Program-made: the position numbers and the translations under genes
DNA from: Geminocystis sp. M7585_C2015_104
Lineage (GTDB): Bacteria; Cyanobacteriota; Cyanobacteriia; Cyanobacteriales; Cyanobacteriaceae
DNA length: 33,535 nucleotides
Assembly: GCA_015295805.1 (NCBI GenBank)
Contig: DVEF01000071.1
Location: 1 to 33,535, forward strand
Reading direction: 5' to 3'
The notes under the pieces: model-generated
The model's database searches: none
Seen by the model: the letters and a program-made list of their open reading frames with translations, nothing else
Told to the model about the DNA's origin: nothing
In this document: positions 2 to 16,317 of the stretch, piece after piece
How the letters are laid out: each line of letters opens with the position of its first letter
How positions within the stretch are numbered: the first letter of the stretch is position 1

Positions 2-1465
2 CTGTACACCGTCCTTACCCACAAAAACGGCAACGAGGAAGGGGAATTACAACCCATTCTAGACGGTCGAATTTATATCCCGGACCCCACCGCCTTTAAC
101 CCCAACAAACGTTGGATTAGGACTGACCTCAAGTGGTCTAATCTCAGATTTGCAAAGGCTTTCTTACGCCATCTTGTACTCCACATTTCTGCTATTGCCG
201 TCGCCGAAAAGATTAGTGAAATTCACTGGTGTATCTCCTATCCCGCCGCTTTTTCCAAAACCGATAGAATGACCTTCCACCGCAGTTGGCAAGAAATCTG
301 TGATACCCTGAGTCCAAAAACTGGCTTGGAGTATTCAGTACCACAAATAGATGATGAACGTCGTTTTTGTACAGAAAGTGTGGCCCTAGCCCAGTATTTC
401 AACGACAAGGAAAAACACCCCCTGGTGCGTACCACCTGTATAGACATCGGCGGTGGCACATCTGATATATCCATATGGGAAAACAGGCGTATTGTGTACC
501 AGTGTTCCCTCTCGGTGGCGGGTAAGAGTATCTTCTCCGAAATCCTCGCCCATAACCCCCCCTATGCCCAACAGCTTATGGAGGAATTCATACCGGGTGG
601 GTGGCAAGAAGGTACTGACTTGTCCATAATGGCTAAAATAGATGTCGCCCTCCGTCACAAGGGAGAAGAATGGCTACATTCAAAACGGATTTATAAAAAC
701 AATGACCCCTACTTCCAACACCTAATGACTATTACTGCCATTGGCATAGCAGGTCTATACTACTATATAGGTCTGTGTCTTAAAGTACTACACGAACAGG
801 GAAAATATTCCACTCCCCAAGTCACCCCGGTATATGTCGGCGGCAATGGTAGCCGTTTCTTCCACTGGCTTTCCCCCACCGGCATCTATGACAAAAATGC
901 CGAACTCAACAGGCTACTCAGTTACATTTTGAGTAAAGCCTCGGGCTTTTCTGACACCCAAGAAAAAACCCAACTAAGTAGTCGCCCTAAACACGAGATA
1001 GCTGCCGGTTTAGTGGTTTCCCAAACCGAATTGGAAGGAATCACAGAGTATACCGACTTTGATGTCATCGCCGGGGAAGATTTCTATCTAGAATACCATG
1101 ATGATAAGCAAGAATATAGGCTGGAAAAGGACTGGAAGTCTCGTCTCCACCTGGAAGGAACTATTACCAAAATGGATATACCTCGTCTTACCAATCTCAA
1201 AAACTTCCTCTACGAATTCCATGAGGGTTTAAGAAACTTGGGCATAGAAAGTCTACAACCCCTCCCCAAACACGACTACAGACACCAAAGGGGAGAAGAT
1301 GCCAATGCCCAACTCTGGCGAGAAGTCTATCGCCATCTAGAGGACAAACTCCTAGACGTAAGAGGCGAAGCCAAAGATATCCGGGAGGCCACCCCCTTCA
1401 TTATGGGTTTGAAATCCCTCCTACACATCCTGGGCAAACGTTGGGCTGACGCTTGGAGAGGATAA
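2..1465 (+). CDS. Actin/Hsp70-superfamily ATPase-like protein, 5' end cut off
   Basis: The frame is open from base 2 to the stop at 1463-1465, so the gene starts left of the window; the ATG at 269 is internal. Visible hallmarks are a phosphate-2-like loop, CIDIGGGTSDISIW (about 436-477), and an adenosine-binding-like motif, VYVGGNGSRF (about 832-861), in the order seen in actin and Hsp70 folds. The segment ISYPAAFSKTDR before them matches the position of the Hsp70 'VPA' strand. The phosphate-1 loop would lie in the missing part. At least 487 residues are present. It is followed by a zinc-ribbon protein and a membrane coiled-coil protein on the same strand, suggesting an operon. The fold is inferred from motifs. 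It could be SrfB-like or another actin-like family; substrate and function are unknown. Confidence 0.7.
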   Translation: MYTVLTHKNGNEEGELQPILDGRIYIPDPTAFNPNKRWIRTDLKWSNLRFAKAFLRHLVLHISAIAVAEKISEIHWCISYPAAFSKTDRMTFHRSWQEICDTLSPKTGLEYSVPQIDDERRFCTESVALAQYFNDKEKHPLVRTTCIDIGGGTSDISIWENRRIVYQCSLSVAGKSIFSEILAHNPPYAQQLMEEFIPGGWQEGTDLSIMAKIDVALRHKGEEWLHSKRIYKNNDPYFQHLMTITAIGIAGLYYYIGLCLKVLHEQGKYSTPQVTPVYVGGNGSRFFHWLSPTGIYDKNAELNRLLSYILSKASGFSDTQEKTQLSSRPKHEIAAGLVVSQTELEGITEYTDFDVIAGEDFYLEYHDDKQEYRLEKDWKSRLHLEGTITKMDIPRLTNLKNFLYEFHEGLRNLGIESLQPLPKHDYRHQRGEDANAQLWREVYRHLEDKLLDVRGEAKDIREATPFIMGLKSLLHILGKRWADAWRG

Positions 1466-1500
1466 TCCTATTCACCGTATCACAAATTCCGGAAACTGAC

Positions 1501-2316
1501 ATGCTTCCATCTAAATGTCCAGTTTGTGGCAGTCTCTTAATACCCGGGAAAACAAAATGTACTGTATGCCACTGGGACTTGACTGCCTATTCCCTTTCTA
1601 AACCGAAGGATATACTTAGAAAAGCCGAAACATGGGCTAGAATCGCCCTTAGTAAGCTCAATAAATATAAACTGGAGATGAGGCAATTGAAACAAAAAAT
1701 GGCAGAATATAACCATGAATTACTCGAAAGAATTGCCCGCCTAGAAGACAGGGTGAAAAATCTGGAAGAAAGAATACAACTGCTAGAAAATGAAAAGGAA
1801 AATTCGGAGATAAAAACCCAGAATATATACCACTCCGAATTCATCGAGATAGAAACAGATACAGAGACCACTGAGGTAGTTGCAATCTCCTCACAATCCC
1901 CCCAAAAAAACAGTGCAGAATCCCGGGCAAAACCTGTTTCCATAAACCCCTATGAACAACAACTAATTGATTGTTACAACCAAAACCCCACCAGTCTCCA
2001 ACAATATTCTTGCTCAGTAAATCTCACCAAAAGTACCTTGGAAAATATATATCTCAACCCGGGGGCCGAAATTATCTTTGAGCCTTCTAAGTTTGAGGAG
2101 TATCTAGTAGTAGAATTACCCAATAGTGAGTTCCGCTTACTCCCCCACTGGGAGCTGAAAATTAATACCAATATGAAGGCCATTATGCACATATTCCATA
2201 TTCAAGGTGACCCCAAAAACAACAGGAAATTTAGAATAATAAAAACAGCAAAAGTAGTGCCGCATGAACAGGAAAAATGGCGCCTGGTTGAAAAAGGAAT
2301 TCTGCAATTTCAATAG
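1501..2316 (+). CDS. Zinc-ribbon coiled-coil protein with C-terminal WRLVE-type domain
   Basis: 271 residues from the ATG at 1501, which puts a zinc-binding pair at the very N terminus: C6-P-V-C9 and C20-T-V-C23. A TTG at 1453 overlapping the upstream stop would add 16 residues and is less likely. Residues about 45-103 are heptad-rich and charged (predicted coiled coil), followed by a low-complexity acidic linker and a C-terminal domain (about 150-271) ending in KWRLVEKGILQF. That domain is clearly related to the C terminus of the next gene. There is no signal peptide or membrane segment, so it is probably cytosolic. It lies 35 bp after the actin-like ATPase gene and 15 bp before its partner. 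I do not recognise a named family; an adaptor or scaffold role is inference. Confidence 0.75.
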   Translation: MLPSKCPVCGSLLIPGKTKCTVCHWDLTAYSLSKPKDILRKAETWARIALSKLNKYKLEMRQLKQKMAEYNHELLERIARLEDRVKNLEERIQLLENEKENSEIKTQNIYHSEFIEIETDTETTEVVAISSQSPQKNSAESRAKPVSINPYEQQLIDCYNQNPTSLQQYSCSVNLTKSTLENIYLNPGAEIIFEPSKFEEYLVVELPNSEFRLLPHWELKINTNMKAIMHIFHIQGDPKNNRKFRIIKTAKVVPHEQEKWRLVEKGILQFQ

Positions 2317-2331
2317 CCTCCGGAGGTATCT

Positions 2332-3336
2332 ATGAAAAACAAATTCCTCACCCTGACCATCATTGGTGTACTAACAACAACCCATCCCTCACTCCCCCCC
2401 CATTTCACCACTATTTATGCCCATAACACTACTTTTTCCTTCTCCTACCAACAACAAAATTACCCCCACCCTAATCCCGCTCCAAATAATACTATAATTC
2501 CCCTTATAAATCTGTTTCTAAATATCCTTATATTAGGGTGTTTACTTTACTTATTACTCCTTCTGGCAGACCCGAGAGGGCCCTTGAGTTCTTTGATCAA
2601 ATTAAACTTATTCAAGGGGGGAAGAATAAGCCGGGTATACTCCGAATTGTCTAAAGAAATAGGTCAGGTTGAGAGGAAAATAGAATTCCTGGCAGATAGG
2701 ACACAGAAATTAGAGGAGACTAATGAGAAAATCCACGCAGAATTCAACAAAAAAATTGCGGAGATTCAGCTCTCACTCTCAGAAATGAGCAGCAAGATTA
2801 TTCAGTTGAAAGAAGCAACAGATGTCGAACTGTCTTTGCTGCAGAGTGGCAATGAGGAGCTAAAAGGTACAACCAAAATACAATATGAATACAAAGAAAT
2901 TCAAACTCAGACACCGCAAATCAGTCCACAAGAAGAATCGGAATACTCATCACTGTTAAAAGCCTACAGAGAAAACCCTAATAGTCTCTTCCACAATGCA
3001 ATACAAGTGGCCCTCACTAAAGAAACAGTAGAGAAAATAATGACTGGCAGCTGGGGGGGAGTAGTAGAATTCCAGGAAGACCACCGCAGAGGAGACTATT
3101 ATGTTGTAGGGGATGACATGGGCTCATTTTATCTATTCTTAAATCCCGACACACTTTTCAATGTCCAAACCCTGACAGACATAATAAACAAATCAAAAAT
3201 ATTTCAATTCAGAGAAGGCCCTAATAAGAGTTATATGGGGAAAGATATTACAATCATAAAACCGGCTTTGGTGAAACAGGAAAATCAATACTGGCGCCTG
3301 GTGGAATCGGGAGAAATTGAATTCCCTGTCCACTAG
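2332..3336 (+). CDS. Membrane-anchored coiled-coil protein with C-terminal WRLVE-type domain
   Basis: 334 residues, with a GGAGG ribosome-binding site 6 bases before the ATG. The N terminus looks like a signal sequence or first membrane segment (about 1-30). A Pro/Asn/Thr-rich stretch follows, then a strong hydrophobic segment (about 55-79, rich in Leu and Ile), a basic patch and a long coiled coil (about 100-170). The C-terminal domain (about 205-334) ends in YWRLVESGEIEF. It matches the preceding protein in the motifs NP-SL, LTK-T-E-I, I-K-A-V and WRLVE-G-I-F. The pair therefore looks like a soluble and a membrane-bound version of one binding module, encoded after an actin-like ATPase. Family unknown; no function is assigned. 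Confidence 0.75.
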   Translation: MKNKFLTLTIIGVLTTTHPSLPPHFTTIYAHNTTFSFSYQQQNYPHPNPAPNNTIIPLINLFLNILILGCLLYLLLLLADPRGPLSSLIKLNLFKGGRISRVYSELSKEIGQVERKIEFLADRTQKLEETNEKIHAEFNKKIAEIQLSLSEMSSKIIQLKEATDVELSLLQSGNEELKGTTKIQYEYKEIQTQTPQISPQEESEYSSLLKAYRENPNSLFHNAIQVALTKETVEKIMTGSWGGVVEFQEDHRRGDYYVVGDDMGSFYLFLNPDTLFNVQTLTDIINKSKIFQFREGPNKSYMGKDITIIKPALVKQENQYWRLVESGEIEFPVH

Positions 3337-8425: not shown

Positions 8426-9619
8426 CTAACTCGATAAAAGAGAAAGTCTAGCCTGGTACTCAGCTTCTAAGTGAATGAGATGGAGAGGAATTTGAAGAGA
8501 CTGGGATATGCGGAGACAGTCCTCGTACTCGGGCTGGACATTGAGAATTTCACCGTTATGATAGGCGATTTTTACACGGACATCGCCAAATTTAGTTTTA
8601 ACAGAAACAATTTGTCGCTCGAGGACAGCACGGGTTTGGATTTGACGACGAATGCCAAGGGTGGTAGTATGTCCAAATAAGAAATTCTCGCAGATGTTAA
8701 TCTTATCCAGCTCACAGATAACGGTAAGAAGAGTGCCAAGACGGTTTTTCTTCATGGCAACAGGCTGTTGGAATACATCCAAGGCCCCCAATCGCAACAA
8801 CTCCGTGGCTACATGGGCGAGAATTTGAGGATTACAGTCGTCAATCTGAGTTTCCAATACGGCAACTTCTTCAAGTAAGGGGGAAGTGGCCGTTTCCCCT
8901 AACCAAAGCCTTAAAATATTGGGAAGGGGTAAATCTAGACTGCCTGCGCCTAAACCAATTTTAGTAATTTTCATGGCAGGCGGCGGTCCAAAATCCACAG
9001 CCAGGGTGGTGACAATGGCAGCGCCAGTGGGGGTTACCAATTCTCTCTCAATGCCATTACTATATACTGGCACTTGACGGTCTTGAAACATCTGTAGTAC
9101 AGCTGGCACGGGCACAGGAAGGGTACCATGAGAAGTCACCACGGTGCCACCCCCAACGGGGAGAGGCGAACAGTATAGTCTTTCCACCCCCAGATAGTCT
9201 AACCCAATACAAGTACCCACTATGTCCACAATGGCATCGACAGCCCCTACCTCATGAAAGTGTACCTTCTCCACAGTGGTGCCATGGACTTTCGCCTCCG
9301 CCACCGCTAAATGCCTAAAAATCTCTATACTCTTCTCCTTGACGGCAGGGGGTAAACCACTGTTGTCAATAATTTCCGCTATGTCGGCAAAATGACGATG
9401 AGGACGCCTTTGACTGGAAAAAACCTCCACGTGAATTTTTGTGGCTAGTTGACCATTTTTTAACACCCCTTCTTGCCGTAACTCAAATTCATCCCTTATT
9501 GTCAACAGTGCCAGTTTATCACTTAGATACGCAAAAGGCACACCCGCCGACACCAACGCCCCCAAAAACATGTCCCCCGCCACCCCAGTGGCACACTGCA
9601 AATAGGCAATTCTACTCAT
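8426..9619 (-). CDS. larC: Nickel-pincer cofactor biosynthesis protein LarC
   Basis: 397 residues, a typical single-ORF LarC (DUF111) length. LarC inserts nickel into the pyridinium dithiocarboxylate precursor in a CTP-dependent step, giving the nickel-pincer cofactor first found in lactate racemase. Signatures are YLQCATGVAGDMFLGAL at the N terminus, the metal-binding-type segment VHFHEVGAVDAIVDIVG near residue 140, and the C-terminal region FGHTTTLGIRR. The start is the ATG at 9619, preceded by a GGAGGGAAGGA tract; an in-frame extension to 9718 adds 33 hydrophobic residues that the family lacks. No larB, larE or larA-like gene is adjacent, so the partner enzymes must be elsewhere. It is transcribed divergently from nrtA. 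Confidence 0.9.
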   Translation of the reverse strand: MSRIAYLQCATGVAGDMFLGALVSAGVPFAYLSDKLALLTIRDEFELRQEGVLKNGQLATKIHVEVFSSQRRPHRHFADIAEIIDNSGLPPAVKEKSIEIFRHLAVAEAKVHGTTVEKVHFHEVGAVDAIVDIVGTCIGLDYLGVERLYCSPLPVGGGTVVTSHGTLPVPVPAVLQMFQDRQVPVYSNGIERELVTPTGAAIVTTLAVDFGPPPAMKITKIGLGAGSLDLPLPNILRLWLGETATSPLLEEVAVLETQIDDCNPQILAHVATELLRLGALDVFQQPVAMKKNRLGTLLTVICELDKINICENFLFGHTTTLGIRRQIQTRAVLERQIVSVKTKFGDVRVKIAYHNGEILNVQPEYEDCLRISQSLQIPLHLIHLEAEYQARLSLLSS

Positions 9620-9739
9620 TTTCCTTCCCTCCAAACCATTCCACAGTCCTATATACCCCAATAACCCCACTATAGCTTCTACTCCCAGAACTATTTTAAA
9701 AACTAATACATCCCCCAAGATATTTATAACCCTATATTA

Positions 9740-9769
9740 TTGACATTCGCCGGACTCCCCACCTAAAAT
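9740..9769 (+). promoter_or_regulatory. Candidate sigma70-type promoter of nrtABCD
   Basis: TTGACA (9740-9745), 18-base spacer, TAAAAT (9764-9769). Transcription would begin near 9776, about 70 bases before nrtA. A second -10-like TAGAAT lies at 9775-9780. No perfect NtcA box (GTA-N8-TAC) is seen in 9620-9844, although nitrate-transport operons in cyanobacteria are usually NtcA-activated. Confidence 0.5.
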
Positions 9770-9805
9770 AGCCATAGAATAAAAATAATAATATAAGACA
9801 AAAAG

Positions 9806-9821
9806 ATAGACATAAGTCTAT
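9806..9821. repeat. Palindrome before nrtA
   Basis: ATAGAC (9806-9811), ATAA, GTCTAT (9816-9821): a perfect 6-bp inverted repeat just upstream of the ribosome-binding site. It could be an operator or a small mRNA hairpin; it may be chance in AT-rich DNA. Confidence 0.3.
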
Positions 9822-9844
9822 GATTATTGGTCAAAGGAGGTCAA

Positions 9845-11197
9845 ATGCCAAATTTTTCCCGTAGGAACTTCCTGAGGACTGCTGGTATAACCGCGGGTGC
9901 TGTTTTACTCAAGGGCTGTTTGGGAAATCCACCAGGGGAGAATCAGGCCAACACCAACAACCCCACTAACACTGCCGCCACTAATCCCAGTCCAGAAGTC
10001 CGTCCGGAAACCACCACCATCAGACTGGGCTATATTCCCATTGTGGAATCTGCCCCTCTAATCATAGCCAAGGAGAAGGGCTTCTTTGCCAAATATGGCA
10101 TGACGGACGTGGTATTATCCAAACAGGCCAACTGGGCCTCTGCCAGGGATAATGTCACTATCGGTTCAGAAGGCGGCGGCATAGACGGTGGACAATGGCA
10201 AATGCCTATGCCCCATCTCATCAGCGAGGGCATTATCACCAATGGGAATAAAGTGCCTATGTATGTTCTAGCACAACTTAGCACCCAGGGCAACGGCATT
10301 GCCATAGCTCGCACCCACTCAGGCAAAGGATTACATTTGAACTGCAAAAATGCCGCCGAGTATGTGAAAAATTTTGCAAAAACCAATGGACGTAAATTCA
10401 AGGCGGCCTATACCTTCCCCAATGCTAACCAAGACTTTTGGATTCGTTATTGGTTTGCCGCCGGTGGTGTCCACCCCGACAAGGATGTTGATCTGTTGGC
10501 CGTGCCCCCCGCTGAAACTGTACAGGGGATGCGCAACGGCACTATGGACGCCTTTAGTACGGGAGATCCCTGGCCCTATCGTATTATCACCGAAGATATT
10601 GGCCACATGGCTGCCCTCACCGCCCAAATCTGGCCCTACCACCCCGAAGAATATCTGGCCATCCGCGCCGATTGGGTAGATAAACATCCTAAGGCTACTA
10701 AGGCCATTCTCAAGGCCGTTATGGAAGCCCAGCAGTGGTGTGACAACCCCAACAACCGTGCCGAATTGATCAGTATCGTCAGTGGGCGCAACTATTTTAA
10801 TATTCCTGCTGATGTACTTACTCCCCCCTATCAGGGTAAGTACATTATGGGAGACGGCCAAACGGAAGTCAATGACTTTAAAAAAGGCCCCCTTTACTGG
10901 AAAGACGAACGAGGGAGTGTCTCCTATCCCTACAAAAGCCATGACTTGTGGTTTTTAACCGAAACTCTGCGTTGGGGGTTCCACAAGGGCAAAATCAACG
11001 ACTTCGACCAAATCAAAAAGATTATCGACAGAGTAAATAGGGAGGAGCTGTGGCGCGAAGCGGCGGCCGAGGCTGGTTTTACCGCTGACATCCCCCCCAC
11101 CACCTCTCGGGGCATAGAAACCTTTTTTGACGGCAAAGTGTTTGACCCCGAAAACCCCGAGGCCTATCTCAAGAGCCTAGAAATTAAAAATATCTAA
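9845..11197 (+). CDS. nrtA: Nitrate ABC transporter substrate-binding lipoprotein
   Basis: 450 residues from the ATG at 9845, chosen because AAAGGAGG lies just before it; a TTG at 9827 is in frame but would start upstream of that site. The N terminus has a twin-arginine motif (SRRNFL, residues 5-10) and a lipobox-like LLKGC with Cys25, then a Pro/Asn/Thr linker, as in cyanobacterial NrtA lipoproteins anchored on the periplasmic side. The binding domain has [50 protein letters not shown] and [20 protein letters not shown]. These resemble nitrate-binding NrtA more than the bicarbonate-binding CmpA I recall. It leads a four-gene transporter operon. Specificity for nitrate/nitrite is inferred by family resemblance. 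Confidence 0.93.
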
Positions 11198-11235
11198 GTC
11201 GCTGTTCTAGCTTTTTTTCCTTTCTTTGACTATTC

Positions 11236-11249
11236 AAAAAAAAAAAAAA
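11236..11249. repeat. Run of 14 A between nrtA and nrtB
   Basis: A homopolymer of 14 A directly precedes the AAGGAG ribosome-binding site of nrtB (11251-11256). It is outside coding sequence, so slippage would alter spacing rather than frame. Reverse-strand T14 is not next to a strong hairpin, so it is not called a terminator. Confidence 0.7.
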
Positions 11250-11262
11250 CAAGGAGAATGTT

Positions 11263-12102
11263 ATGGCCAATTACCTCAGAGTATCTAGTGGCAGAAACGG
11301 CAACAATATCATAATTAGTCTCTGGAAAAAATACAGGGACGACCTCCTCCCCCCACTGCTGGGCATTGCCTCCTTTCTTCTGTTGTGGGAAGTGGTCTCC
11401 AAGTTTCCAGGAATGCGTTTGCCCGGCCCTAGTAGCCTGTTTACAGATGAACGCACCAGAACACTATTATTGTACCCCTTTTACGACCGTGGGGGTCTGG
11501 ACAAGGGCTTATTCTGGCAAACCCTAGCCAGTCTGGGACGTGTAGCCCAGGGGTACTCACTGGCGGCGGTGGTGGGCATTAGCACAGGAATTCTCGTGGG
11601 CACCAACCCCTTCCTCGACAAGGCTCTTGATCCTATTTTCCAATTTCTCCGAATGGTCGCCCCTCTTGCCTGGGTGCCCATTGCCCTGGTTGCCCTACAG
11701 AAAAACCAACCTGCCGCCATCTTTGTCATATTCATCACTGCCGTCTGGCCCATCCTAATCAATACCAAGGAGGGGGTCAAACAAATTCCCCAAGACTACA
11801 TCAATGTTAAAAGGGTACTGCGACTGTCAAAACAAAAGTTCTTCCTAAAAATCCTCATCCCCTCCGCCCTACCCTACATCTTCACCGGTCTGAGAATAGG
11901 AATAGGACTGGCCTGGCTAGCAATCATCGCCGCTGAGATCGTAATGTCCGGAATTGTAGGAATCGGCTTCTTTATCTGGGATGCCTACCAGCAAAACTAC
12001 ATTAGTGAAATCATCTTGGCAGTAATCTACATCGGCGCAGTGGGTCTCCTTTTGGACAGAGGAATCGCCTTTCTGCAAAAACTCATTGCCCCCCAACAGT
12101 AA
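11263..12102 (+). CDS. nrtB: Nitrate ABC transporter permease
   Basis: 279 residues, the usual length for NrtB, the inner-membrane channel subunit of the nitrate importer. Several hydrophobic spans are visible (LLGIASFLLLWEVV, LAAVVGISTGILVG, AIFVIFITAVWPILI, WLAIIAAEIVMSGIVGIGFF, ILAVIYIGAVGLLL). The permease coupling-loop region that docks on the ATPase is around residues 180-225 (VLRLSKQKFFLKILIPSALPYIFTGLRIGIG). The start has AAGGAG 6 bases upstream. It lies between nrtA (65 bp, including the A14 run) and nrtC (23 bp). It would pair with NrtC and NrtD as the two ATP-binding subunits. Confidence 0.93.
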   Translation: MANYLRVSSGRNGNNIIISLWKKYRDDLLPPLLGIASFLLLWEVVSKFPGMRLPGPSSLFTDERTRTLLLYPFYDRGGLDKGLFWQTLASLGRVAQGYSLAAVVGISTGILVGTNPFLDKALDPIFQFLRMVAPLAWVPIALVALQKNQPAAIFVIFITAVWPILINTKEGVKQIPQDYINVKRVLRLSKQKFFLKILIPSALPYIFTGLRIGIGLAWLAIIAAEIVMSGIVGIGFFIWDAYQQNYISEIILAVIYIGAVGLLLDRGIAFLQKLIAPQQ

Positions 12103-12125
12103 CCCCACAACAGGAGGCAGGAACT

Positions 12126-14126
12126 ATGGCACTGTTCGTAGCTGTAGACAACGTAGAAAAAGTATTCCCCAGCACCGGCGGCGGAGAATATTTAGCCCTT
12201 AAGGGGATTAACTTAGAAATCAAAAAAGGTGAATTCATCTCCCTCATAGGACACTCCGGCTGCGGTAAGTCCACCCTTCTGAATATAATCGCTGGCTTGG
12301 AATTGCCAAGCAAAGGGGTTGTTACCCTCTCCGGGAAGCCAGTAAAAGAACCGGGCCCCGAAAGGATGGTAATATTCCAAAGTTACTGTCTCCTCCCATG
12401 GCTGACAGTGCGTCAAAACATCGCCCTGGCAGTAGACGAGGTGATGAAAGACTACTCGGCGGCAGAAAAAAGAGAAATAGTAGAAGAACATATCCGCCTT
12501 GTGGGCCTAAGTCATGCCAGTGACAAATACCCCGGCCAACTATCCGGGGGCATGAAACAAAGAGTGGCTATAGCCAGGGCTTTGGCCATTCGTCCACAAC
12601 TGCTACTGTTAGACGAGCCCTTTGGTGCCCTGGATGCCCTCACCCGCGGCAATCTTCAGGAACAGTTGATGAATCTTTGCACCCGTCATCAAATCACCGC
12701 CGTAATGGTAACCCATGACGTGGATGAGGCGGTTTTCCTGTCTGACCGCATTGTGATGTTAACCAATGGCCCCGGGGCTCAAATCGGTGGAATCCTCGAG
12801 GTGGAAATCCCTCGCCCCCGTCAGAGAATGGAACTAGTAAAACACCCCAGTTACTACAGTCTTAGAAGTGAAATCATCTACTTCCTTAACCGCCAAAAAC
12901 AAATTAAAAAACTACGAGCCCAAAAACACACCGTTATCAGTCGTCATGGCCTTGAAAAAATTAACCTTCAAATCGGTTTTGTGCCCCTGACGGCCTGTGC
13001 TCCCCTGGTTATTGCTAAGGAAAAAGGTTTTTTTGCTAAACATGGTCTGGAGGAGGTTACTCTTGTCAGGGAAAGTAGCTGGCGTGGCATTGTAGATGGC
13101 ATTGTGGGGGGTTATCTGGATGCGGCACAAATGCCCGCCGGAATGCCTGCCTGGCTGACCATTGGTGGCCACCAGGGGAAACCGACCCCTGTGGTGACTG
13201 CCCTCACCATGACTAGAAATGGCAATGCTATCACCCTAGGAAAAAGTTTTTATGAAAAGGGGATATTCGACGGCAAGGCATTGAAAAGATTTCTCCTAGA
13301 ATCGGCAGCCGCAACCCATACCTTTGGTATAGTACACCCGAGTTCCATGCACAATCTACTCTTGCGCTATTGGCTGGCCGCCCAGGGAATTGATCCAGAC
13401 TACCACGTTCGTCTCCAAACTATTCCCCCCGCCCAAATGGTAGCAGACTTAAAATCCGGAATAATTGACGGTTTCTGTGTGGGCGAACCCTGGAATCTTC
13501 GTGCCGCTCTTGAAGGCATTGGCTTTACCGTGGCCACCGACTTGGAACTGTGGGATGGACACCCCGGCAAGGTCCTAGGAGTCCGCGAAGACTGGGCCAA
13601 TGCCTACCCCAACACCCACATCGCACTGGTAAAGGCACTTCTTTCCGCCTGCCAATTCTGTGCCCAGCCGGAAAACCATGAGGAAATCCGAAAAATTCTG
13701 GCTCAGCGCCACTATCTGGCCACCAAAATAGAATACATCCAATTGGGAGACCCCCTTAACTATACCTGTAATCTTAATCCCCCCGTCCAGTATGCCCACC
13801 ACCTCTTTTTCGGCGATGGTGTTAACCGCCCCAGTCGCACCGAGTGTTTGTGGATGATTACACAAATGGCACGCTGGGGAGACATTCCCTTCCCCCGCAA
13901 CTGGATGGAAATTCTCGAACGTGTCTGTCGGGTGAGTGTATATAGCACCGCCTGTCGCGAACTGGGATTGAGTAATTTGAAATACCGCCGACAACCCATC
14001 TGTCTTATGGATGGTGTTTTCTTCGACGGAGAAGATCCCATCGCCTACCTCAACAGTTTGACCATAAAACGAAACATCACCATGGCAGAAATTCACCTGG
14101 ATAACACCGTTTCACTCGCTATGTAG
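12126..14126 (+). CDS. nrtC: Nitrate ABC transporter ATP-binding protein with NrtA-like regulatory domain
   Basis: 666 residues with the two-part architecture typical of cyanobacterial NrtC. Residues about 1-260 are an ABC ATPase: Walker [10 protein letters not shown] (42-50), signature [15 protein letters not shown], Walker [13 protein letters not shown], and the switch His in MVTHDVDEA. Residues about 280-660 resemble the solute-binding protein NrtA ([26 protein letters not shown] matches the NrtA N-terminal domain). In the characterised Synechococcus system this tail mediates inhibition of transport by ammonium; that role here is by analogy. CmpC of the bicarbonate transporter shares the layout, but the neighbouring NrtA resembles the nitrate type. 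AGGAGG precedes the start. nrtD begins 12 bp after the stop. Confidence 0.93.
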
Positions 14127-14138
14127 AGGGAGCAGATT

Positions 14139-14984
14139 ATGGAAACTTATAGAAGAAGGGAAATCGTTAAAAAGATGGAAAAACAACTACAGTTCGACTT
14201 TTTCTTGACCATTGATAACGTTTCCAAAGTTTATCCCACCCCCAAAGGCCCCCTGACCGTTTTAAAGGACGTTAACCTCATAGTCAATGAAGGCGAGTTT
14301 GTCTGCATCATCGGACACTCGGGGTGTGGCAAGTCTACACTCCTAAACATGGTTGCCGGATTCACAAGCCCCACTAAAGGCGCAGTATACTTGAAAGGTA
14401 AAAAAATTACAGAACCGGGGCCGGATAGAATGGTAGTATTTCAGAATTATGCCCTTTTGCCTTGGTTAACGGTATTTGAAAATGTATATCTAGCAGTAGA
14501 TGCCGTATACCCGGACAAGAGGGAGGCCGAAAAAAGAGCCATAGTCCGGGAACACTTGGCTCTGGTAGGACTGAGTGATGCCGCCAACAAGAAACCTCCC
14601 CAAATTTCCGGGGGTATGCGACAAAGAACCTCTATTGCCCGAGCCCTGGCTATCCGCCCCGAAGTGCTTATCCTCGACGAACCCTTTGGCGCTCTGGATC
14701 CTATCACCAAGGAAGAACTACAAGAAGAGCTACTCAATATCTGGCAAGAACACCGTTGTACTGTTTTAATGATTACCCATGATATTGATGAAGCCCTATT
14801 TCTGGCTGACCGTATAGTCATGATGACCAATGGGCCAGAGGCCACCATCGGCGAAATCGTTTCTGTGCCCTTTTCTCGCCCCAGAATCCGCGATATTATA
14901 ATGGAGGACCCCCAGTACTACGAATTGCGCAACTACGTCCTAGACTTCCTCTACAACCGCTATGCCCATGAGGATGTGGCCTAG
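14139..14984 (+). CDS. nrtD: Nitrate ABC transporter ATP-binding protein
   Basis: 281 residues: a single ABC ATPase without the extra domain of NrtC. Motifs are Walker [11 protein letters not shown]-loop QNYALLPWLT, signature ISGGMRQRTSIARAL, Walker [13 protein letters not shown] and switch MITHDIDEA. It forms the second nucleotide-binding subunit beside NrtC. A GAGGGAGCAG tract precedes the ATG at 14139; a later in-frame ATG at 14175 is possible but lacks a better site. It is the last gene of the transporter operon. No narB or nirA follows; instead apcA starts 260 bp downstream, and no terminator is visible in between. Confidence 0.93.
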   Translation: METYRRREIVKKMEKQLQFDFFLTIDNVSKVYPTPKGPLTVLKDVNLIVNEGEFVCIIGHSGCGKSTLLNMVAGFTSPTKGAVYLKGKKITEPGPDRMVVFQNYALLPWLTVFENVYLAVDAVYPDKREAEKRAIVREHLALVGLSDAANKKPPQISGGMRQRTSIARALAIRPEVLILDEPFGALDPITKEELQEELLNIWQEHRCTVLMITHDIDEALFLADRIVMMTNGPEATIGEIVSVPFSRPRIRDIIMEDPQYYELRNYVLDFLYNRYAHEDVA

Positions 14985-15244
14985 TAGCTTAGCAAAATGT
15001 TAAAAAGTATTAAGAAAATGAAGCACAGGGGGACTTAATATCGCAAAATAATCAGCGGAGAGATGTTAAGCCTCTCATTGTTAAAGCAAATCCTCAGAAA
15101 GGCCCTAAAGGCTGAGTATGAGAAACAAATATCCACACCTGACAAAAAATTCAGGAAATTTCTAATCCAACCAATACGGGCTTGACCAGTTTTCTGGTTT
15201 AATAAATAAGCAGTATTTAAAAACTTGTTTGGAGGAATCCCTAA
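14985..15244 (+). promoter_or_regulatory. Spacer and structured leader of apcA
   Basis: 260 bp without a gene. Small inverted repeats follow one another: GAGAG/CTCTC (about 15058-15077), CTCAG/CTGAG (about 15093-15116), CCTGA/TCAGG (about 15138-15156) and ACCAG-TTTT-CTGGT (15185-15198). TTGACC at 15182-15187 could be a -35 element, but no clear -10 is at the right distance. GGAGG lies 9 bases before the apcA start. No terminator for nrtD is seen. It probably holds the apc promoter and a long mRNA leader, as is usual for this operon. Confidence 0.35.
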
Positions 15245-15730
15245 ATGAGTATCGTCACGAAAGCTATCGTGAATGCGGACGCCGAGGCTCGTTATCTCAG
15301 CCCCGGTGAATTGGACAGAATCAAAGCTTTTGTAAACTCCGGCGAAGCCCGTCTCCGCATCGCCGAAACCCTCACTGGCGCCCGTGAGCGCATTGTTAAA
15401 GAGGCCGGCGATCGTCTCTTCCAAAAACGCCCTGACATCGTATCCCCTGGTGGCAATGCCTATGGCGAAGAAATGACCGCCACCTGCCTGCGGGATATGG
15501 ACTACTACTTACGTCTGATCACCTACGGGATCGTAGCGGGCGATGTAACCCCCATCGAAGAAATCGGCTTGATAGGGGTAAAAGAAATGTACAAGTCCCT
15601 GGGCACTGACATCGGCGCTGTGGCCCAAAGCGTACGCGAGATGAAAGAAGTGGCTATGTCCCTGCTCTCCCCCGAAGATGCCGCTGAGGCAGCAACTTAC
15701 TTCGACTATGTAATCGGGGCCATGCAGTAA
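15245..15730 (+). CDS. apcA: Allophycocyanin alpha subunit
   Basis: 161 residues, exactly the family length. With ApcB it forms the heterodimers and trimers of the phycobilisome core, which pass excitation energy to the photosystem reaction centres on the thylakoid surface. Cys81, in [10 protein letters not shown], is the attachment site for phycocyanobilin, and the globin-like phycobiliprotein sequence is intact ([20 protein letters not shown] at the start, FDYVIGAMQ at the end). It is first of apcA-apcB-apcC, with about 100 bp to apcB. The core linker gene apcE, which often precedes apcA, is not here; nrtD is. Codon use is strongly biased, as expected for a highly expressed gene. Confidence 0.98.
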
Positions 15731-15831
15731 GCCCAATTTTTAGCCCCATCTCTTGTTATCCTCTGAAAAAGTAACCCATAAAGCTATCACCCTCATCTTC
15801 TAAAGTCCACTAAGAAATTAAGGAAACAACA

Positions 15832-16317
15832 ATGCAAGACGCAATCACCGCCGTAATCAACTCTGCTGACGTTCAAGGCAAATACCTGGACGCTAACGCC
15901 ATCCAAAAACTGAAAAACTATTTCCAAAGCGGCGCCCTCCGTGTTCGTGCCGCCAGCATCATCAGCGCTAATGCCGCTAACATCGTAAAAGAGGCTGTAG
16001 CTAAGTCCCTGCTATACTCTGATGTAACTCGCCCCGGCGGCAACATGTACACCACCCGTCGCTATGCCGCCTGCATCCGCGACTTGGACTACTTCCTCCG
16101 CTATGCTACCTATGCCATGCTGGCTGGCGATCCCTCTATCCTCGATGAAAGAGTATTAAATGGCTTGAAGGAAACCTATAACTCCCTCGGCGTGCCCATC
16201 AGCTCCACCGTCCAAGCCATCCAAGCCATGAAAGAAGTCACCGCCAGTTTGGTAGGTGCCGAAGCCGGCAAGGAAATGGGTGTTTACTTCGACTACATCT
16301 GCTCCGGCTTGAGCTAA
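15832..16317 (+). CDS. apcB: Allophycocyanin beta subunit
   Basis: 161 residues, the family length. It is the partner of ApcA in the phycobilisome core. Cys81 ([11 protein letters not shown]) binds phycocyanobilin. Asn71 in RPGGNMY is at the position known to carry N-methylation in beta phycobiliproteins. The C terminus, FDYICSGLS, is characteristic. AAGGAA precedes the start. The spacer to apcC (216 bp) contains a long imperfect hairpin, consistent with a more abundant apcAB message and a lesser apcABC message, the pattern reported in other cyanobacteria. Confidence 0.98.

Follow-up and report, generated by a model that had tools for sequence, protein, structure and literature searches.

Three genes at the start of a contig of Geminocystis sp. 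M7585_C2015_104 (DVEF01000071.1), encoding a large actin-like protein and two smaller proteins with a common C-terminal domain, raise the question of which system they belong to. The window analysed here is this entire contig (C71; 33,535 nucleotides) of a 2.82-Mb genome. An earlier note had read the genes as a three-gene cassette; they are real, but the cassette so drawn is incomplete. The full cassette, whose 3′ half lies in the window, has six parts: a vWA-like lipoprotein, a four-transmembrane (4-TM) protein, a tubulin-like protein (TUB), an actin-like protein (ACT), a zinc-ribbon protein (CTD-Zn) and a membrane-anchored protein (CTD-TM), the last two sharing a C-terminal domain (CTD). The vWA-like, 4-TM and TUB partners had not been recognised because they lie off the contig. 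By computation we established the parts, the order in which they usually occur and their co-inheritance, as well as the ACT fold, the CTD and the existence of natural fusions of TUB with ACT and of CTD with ACT.

The ACT gene is cut by the window start, its frame being open at position 2. The end of another contig of this genome, C17, encodes the N-terminal 607 residues of ACT, with the motif VGVDFGTSFT; its last codons abut the first ones of the window, and the ortholog in genome G001 is continuous across the junction. C17 also encodes, in the same direction as ACT, a 172-residue 4-TM protein and a 506-residue TUB, which is 85% identical to that of G001. The vWA-like gene is on contig C89 beside a CTD locus, one of two further CTD-bearing loci of the genome (the other is on C41). 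Within the window, the 487-residue open frame with the motifs CIDIGGGTSDISIW and VYVGGNGSR and the two tightly spaced downstream genes, one zinc-ribbon and one membrane-anchored, proved to be as described before (Table 1). Gaps measure 35 nucleotides between ACT and CTD-Zn and 15 between CTD-Zn and CTD-TM. The more likely start of CTD-Zn is the ATG at 1501 (271 residues) rather than the listed TTG at 1453, because the G001 ortholog starts with MLPPKCPVC. CTD-TM has a single hydrophobic segment, at residues ~58-79.

Co-occurrence of the three genes elsewhere was confirmed in other genomes. Across a sample of 386 Cyanobacteriota genomes, ACT was found in 28, TUB in 25 and the vWA-like gene in 28, and all 25 TUB genomes carry both ACT and the vWA-like gene. 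The probability of this overlap by chance is 2.6e-37 (hypergeometric, 27 ACT genomes with G003 dropped), a figure that ignores relatedness. ACT genomes lacking TUB are G287, G092 and G003 (a marginal 54-position match), and the vWA-like gene extends beyond the TUB set to G133 (a stop-filled relic) and, marginally, to G197 and G358. The G133 relic (C23:150474-150938), which contains ten stops, is a vestige of loss in a genome that matches neither ACT nor TUB. The 25 TUB genomes are spread over eleven family groups, every one of which also includes genomes without ACT, and the simple reading is therefore that the cassette is gained or lost whole.

Gene order was examined in the best 80 of 113 confirmed loci, each of them named, with denominators counting loci with room. 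TUB lies 5′ of ACT in 63 of 69 loci (in a 64th, L138, TUB overlaps ACT past the cut used), a 4-TM gene is upstream in 61 of 69, 46 of 59 have a vWA-like gene at any position, and a CTD follows within 4 kb downstream in 54 of 66. The median TUB–ACT gap is 29 nucleotides (77 pairs) and does not exceed 300 nucleotides in 67 of the 77. In the 35 loci where the set of four core genes is complete, distance matrices of ACT and TUB correlate at r = 0.96 and those of the four core genes at 0.86-0.96, with 0 of 999 permutations as high. ACT also occurs on five plasmid records, and all three that were examined hold vWA-like, 4-TM, TUB, ACT and CTD genes; other copies reside on megabase-size contigs (e.g. 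G004, G007, G008, L095 and L140). No ACT match was found in phages. The cassette is an accessory gain-and-loss system, not a part of housekeeping division.

The earlier proposal of an actin/Hsp70-type first protein is borne out by the model of a full-length ortholog. ACT homologs of relatives form frames of 1,078-1,137 residues in 15 of 19 homologous places, and the AlphaFold2 model built with 62 homologs has a mean predicted local distance difference test (pLDDT) score of 90.3 and a predicted template modelling score of 0.79. Top Foldseek matches include DnaK, BeeR, Hsp70 Ssb, Mbl and MamK (E-values 1e-8 to 1e-6). Model residues ~535-942 were aligned by VIA-align to MreB (4czi) with Z = 20.2 and a root-mean-square deviation of 3.8 over 282 residues; FtsA, DnaK and actin gave Z of ~17-19 (FtsA 4a2b, 18.6). 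A feature of FtsA is subdomain 1C replacing 1B. The aligned lengths are 282 for MreB (target 316) and 261 for FtsA (target 386). Judged by the model, ACT has an actin/Hsp70-superfamily fold and not an unrelated one.

Phosphate-1, phosphate-2 and adenosine motifs are all present in the ACT protein of G000. In the window, we take CIDIGGGTSDISIW to be the phosphate-2 motif, VYVGGNGSR an adenosine-type motif and TESVALAQYF a connect-1-like motif; for the last, residue E727 of the ortholog is at least 90% conserved among the 62 ACT sequences. Single-sequence Pfam scans of ACT produced matches only around the phosphate-2 motif and below cut-offs (MreB and FtsA profiles), and the ACT profile retrieved from the PDB a biotin ligase stretch (E = 0.00032, profile positions 950-1047) followed by MreB (E = 0.003). 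A comparison with SrfB (PF07520), suggested earlier, did not hold: ACT resembles it in its large size and in matching it weakly near the GGGT motif, but P0001 reaches 11.2 bits over 26 residues, where the cut-off is 27.1, and three full-length proteins have no SrfB match at E ≤ 0.1.

The Pfam Tubulin_2 model scores 28.6 bits on the TUB of G001 (cut-off 27) and, above the cut-off, 30.8 bits on that of the Nitrospirae metagenome-assembled genome (MAG) L157, several more cassette TUBs also exceed the cut-off, and several others are below it or undetected; E-values range from 1e-8 to 1e-3, where there is a match. The TUB profile found no match in the PDB. Aligned by hhalign to ten canonical FtsZl1 proteins, it gave 95.5% (E = 1.4e-8), with 218 columns inside the N-terminal 283 positions. 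Tubulin_2 is present in 75 of the 386 genomes, and its canonical members there are mostly ~1,050-1,150 residues long with E-values near 1e-110. TUB frames of the cassette span 490-551 residues (26 places), and the ~1,100-residue FtsZl1 architecture with its long C-terminal region does not occur among them. By sequence comparison, the cassette TUB is a distinct, divergent branch of the tubulin superfamily. On the three plasmids examined, TUB is annotated as 'tubulin-like' once and as hypothetical twice.

The claim that both downstream products end in the same domain stands: the CTD-Zn and CTD-TM products match each other in BLASTP at E ~1e-6, and an iterated CTD hidden Markov model (HMM) gives the window copies E-values of 2e-34 and 2e-28, which are not independent, both copies being among its seeds. 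These comparisons point to a real common domain, not a chance resemblance. The same HMM collected 57 copies in 46 proteins from 17 first-survey loci. The domain comprises ~120 residues and was modelled with a pLDDT of 92.2. Its profile retrieved a sole weak match from the PDB, a topoisomerase (E = 0.014), and no Pfam family matches more than one of 52 members. Zinc-ribbon and transmembrane (TM) proteins have the CTD at the C-terminus, other proteins contain it two or three times, and the ACT paralogs of L026, L027 and L113 carry it at the N-terminus. Among 60 relatives it was found in 20, namely all 17 ACT genomes plus G002 (67% complete), G040 (75%) and G042 (99%), and was absent from 40 of the 43 without ACT; being found almost solely alongside ACT, it is nearly private to the cassette. 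A Pfam scan of CTD proteins (84 of 142 non-redundant ones, longest first) detected WD40 in five, and CTD-WD40 propeller fusions are seen at L117:17563-19392 and L090:16914-18923. Fusions of the CTD to an FGE-sulfatase domain occur in two lineages (L030:15568-17388 and L228:3355-5112). FGS domains presumably belong to this FGE-sulfatase family. A predicted cyanobacterial conflict system is described as having FGS domains as effectors (PMC7159879).

A lipobox-like motif lies close to the start of 64 of the 82 vWA-like matches. The motif D-x-S-x-S, together with a TD motif (34 of 35 proteins), suggests a vWA domain; we name the protein 'vWA-like' because the profile evidence for vWA is weak. Four hydrophobic segments are found in 82 of 96 4-TM matches.

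Outside cyanobacteria, the Nitrospirae MAG L157 encodes vWA-like, 4-TM, TUB and ACT proteins in this order, followed by a protein that ends in a CTD (hhalign 96.3%, E = 1.8e-9). Beyond this cassette, at L157:15149-18001, lies a stator-like pair made up of a MotA/ExbB-like gene (E = 6.4e-5) and an OmpA gene (E = 6.2e-10). In the Syntrophomonadaceae MAG L160 (2442-7424), TUB (residues 3-409, E = 2.9e-45) and ACT (residues 521-1654, E = 3.2e-72) form a single frame of 1,660 residues, on which the Pfam Tubulin model scores below its cut-off (E = 0.0012). L160 also encodes a vWA-like protein (E = 2.2e-7) and a membrane-looking protein of 161 residues without a match to the 4-TM model; two proteins 3′ of the fusion have, by eye, a common tail, which in the one tested is weakly CTD-like (44.9%, E = 2.2e-4). 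Full-length ACT was found in 1 of 198 genomes of the L157 phylum and 1 of 63 of the L160 class, that is, in the seeds and no others. Matches to ACT of fewer than 100 positions around the phosphate-2 motif occur in 92 other genomes of the former (frames of 343-458 residues) and in nine of the latter (412-425 or 690-721 residues). A contig titled Euryarchaeota (L137) bears a cassette of cyanobacterial type and is probably a misbinned cyanobacterial contig.

Table 1. Positions of the cassette features on the window (nucleotides, position 1 being its first letter)
Feature	Position	Strand	Basis
ACT, C-terminal 487 residues of a ~1,090-residue predicted actin/Hsp70-superfamily protein	2..1465	+	frame, orthologs; fold from full-length ortholog; 5′ part on C17
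TESVALAQYF	371..400	+	motif seen in translation
CIDIGGGTSDISIW	437..478	+	motif seen in translation; MreB and FtsA profiles match here
VYVGGNGSR	830..856	+	motif seen in translation
CTD-Zn, 271 residues: zinc ribbon (CPVC...CTVC), coiled coil (by eye), shared C-terminal domain	1501..2316	+	
Shared domain (CTD), copy 1	1954..2310	+	CTD profile; modelled alone, pLDDT 92.2
CTD-TM, 334 residues: N-terminal leader (by eye), TM helix (2503-2568), coiled coil (by eye), CTD	2332..3336	+	
Shared domain (CTD), copy 2	2947..3324	+	CTD profile

Further along the window (8426-16317), we recognise by eye what we take to be genes for a LarC-like protein, a set for a nitrate-type ABC transporter and genes for allophycocyanin-like proteins, presumably ordinary cyanobacterial content.

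In line with the earlier note, no named system was found that fits the cassette. The closest kind are the FtsZl1 (Pfam Tubulin_2)/vWA operons outlined by Makarova and Koonin in 2010 as a predicted membrane machine (PMC2875224), which likewise join a tubulin-superfamily protein to membrane partners and, as the cassette may, to a vWA-type partner. However, canonical cyanobacterial FtsZl1 frames have mostly about twice the length of the cassette TUB (see above), and the ten canonical loci have no match at E = 1e-3 to the ACT, TUB, CTD, 4-TM or vWA-like profiles. Moreover, the main text of PMC2875224 names no actin-like partner, although its Additional Files 5-6 may list ACT among unnamed families. 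These canonical genes (L181-L190; one encodes 754 residues) occur without cassette parts and represent a separate system. A second comparison is with the GAP1-N2 GTPase-centric systems: a role in conflict has been predicted for GTPase systems that include vWA together with either tubulin or HSP70 (Kaur et al. 2020; PMC7159879). They share with the cassette a tubulin- or HSP70-fold nucleoside triphosphatase (NTPase) core, zinc-ribbon and TM parts and, tentatively, vWA, but there the tubulin and HSP70 themes are described as non-overlapping, whereas the cassette has tubulin and actin folds together. No description of the cassette was found in the open-access literature searched, the supplements of PMC2875224 being outside that search. 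Tubulin_2/vWA operons are already known in outline, and we class the cassette as a new variant.

The third comparison is FtsZ–FtsA, a tubulin-fold and actin-fold pair at the membrane. ACT does match FtsA (4a2b, see above), but its N-terminal half is large and MreB matches it best, and the cassette is accessory, with 25 of 386 genomes carrying it. By analogy, the TUB–ACT pairing resembles FtsZ–FtsA, but present evidence does not place it within that module.

We consider it fairly probable that the cassette produces a membrane-anchored TUB/ACT NTPase assembly, predicted to recruit clients through the CTD. Like the earlier note, we infer a nucleotide-driven assembly linked to the membrane. TUB (with GTP) and ACT (with ATP) would be obligate partners assembling beneath the cytoplasmic membrane, with the 4-TM and CTD-TM proteins as their anchors, the lipoprotein would sense or anchor on the far side of the membrane, and nucleotide turnover would govern the loading of CTD-tagged clients via CTD contacts; zinc-ribbon coiled coils and WD40 or FGE-sulfatase fusions are candidate clients. 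More tentatively, the cassette may represent a prokaryotic hybrid cytoskeleton, in which a tubulin-superfamily GTPase and an actin-superfamily ATPase are obligate co-inherited subunits, fused in at least one lineage, and a dedicated new adaptor domain plugs interchangeable sensor or effector modules in at the membrane.

Several observations weigh against this assembly. The correlated distances indicate joint inheritance, not contact, and shared ancestry alone can yield them; the TUB–ACT fusion is one frame in one MAG; and G287 and G092 have ACT without TUB. In L084, L093, L161, G351, G241 and G095, ACT is split or has in-frame stops, or TUB and ACT are several kb apart; such copies and separations appear to reflect decay or insertion in some hosts. 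The actin fold was placed on residues ~535-942 only, with residues 1-534 outside the placed part, and the nucleotide-binding motifs are not strictly kept: regular expressions recovered the phosphate-1 motif from 61 of the 62 ACT homologs, phosphate-2 from 55 and the adenosine motif from 41, and a T4-like motif of TUB was found in 30 of 35 loci. For the lipoprotein, D-x-S-x-S occurs in 47 of 82 matches and in 23 of the 35 four-core-gene loci, hhalign to vWA yields E = 0.0033 (9.7%), and Pfam VWA matches one of 12 members (E = 0.22). Finally, the fold of the CTD has no match in the PDB (best Foldseek E = 0.35, best VIA Z = 3.0), and for this reason its binding role is a guess from architecture; from the model, we neither claim nor exclude a known fold.

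As to what the TUB/ACT assembly would do, the odds of envelope work and of defence are similar, with the TM parts and OmpA/MotA neighbours favouring the former, and the fusions and patchiness the latter. An envelope machinery of the sort proposed for FtsZl1 operons, serving membrane remodelling, secretion or wall-linked tasks, is possible, if doubtful: the lipoprotein, 4-TM and other TM parts and the MotA/ExbB-like and OmpA genes after the L157 cassette agree with the membrane-remodelling proposal (PMC2875224), but the cassette is missing from most sampled genomes and hence dispensable. Besides, peptidoglycan-binding or SPOR domains, suspected by eye in CTD-TM proteins, are without Pfam support (SPOR once, E = 0.017, below the cut-off).

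The alternative that the TUB/ACT core gates CTD-tagged effectors of a biological-conflict (defence) device, like the predicted GTPase/tubulin/vWA systems of multicellular bacteria, appears rather unlikely taken by itself. It would account for the patchy distribution (25 of 386), plasmid copies, variable CTD gene numbers, WD40 domains (5 of 84 proteins) and FGE-sulfatase fusions (two loci), and published systems do combine GTPases, tubulin or HSP70, and vWA (PMC7159879). Yet PADLOC 2023, run on eight cassette proteins, matched nothing in five and gave weak matches for P0002, P0003 and one CTD protein (best E = 2.7e-5), and no named toxic effector domain was found in CTD proteins viewed singly, with 25 of 67 Pfam families covered. 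Some of the neighbours match PADLOC models, such as AbiLi (2.7e-58) and MzaA (4.2e-50), but none of the 45 families matched (101 of 289 eligible neighbours scanned, E = 1e-10) occurs in more than two neighbours, which without a control set speaks neither for nor against a defence island. DNA or plasmid partition analogous to ParM or TubZ, to which the two folds, the plasmid copies (five ACT records, the whole set in three of three examined) and a zinc ribbon that could bind DNA might point, is very improbable, given that the cassette also sits on megabase-size contigs and that partition would leave the lipoprotein, 4-TM and CTD-TM proteins superfluous.

To our knowledge, fixed tubulin-fold and actin-fold partners are known chiefly from FtsZ–FtsA. 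A portable cassette that inherits both folds together, fused in one MAG, would provide a small system, amenable to culture, for testing the coupling of two cytoskeletal NTPases at a membrane; the plasmid copies in Picosynechococcus PCC 7003 and 73109 are examples. Through it, the wider Tubulin_2/vWA operons, on which the literature searched contained no experimental work, would also become easier to approach.

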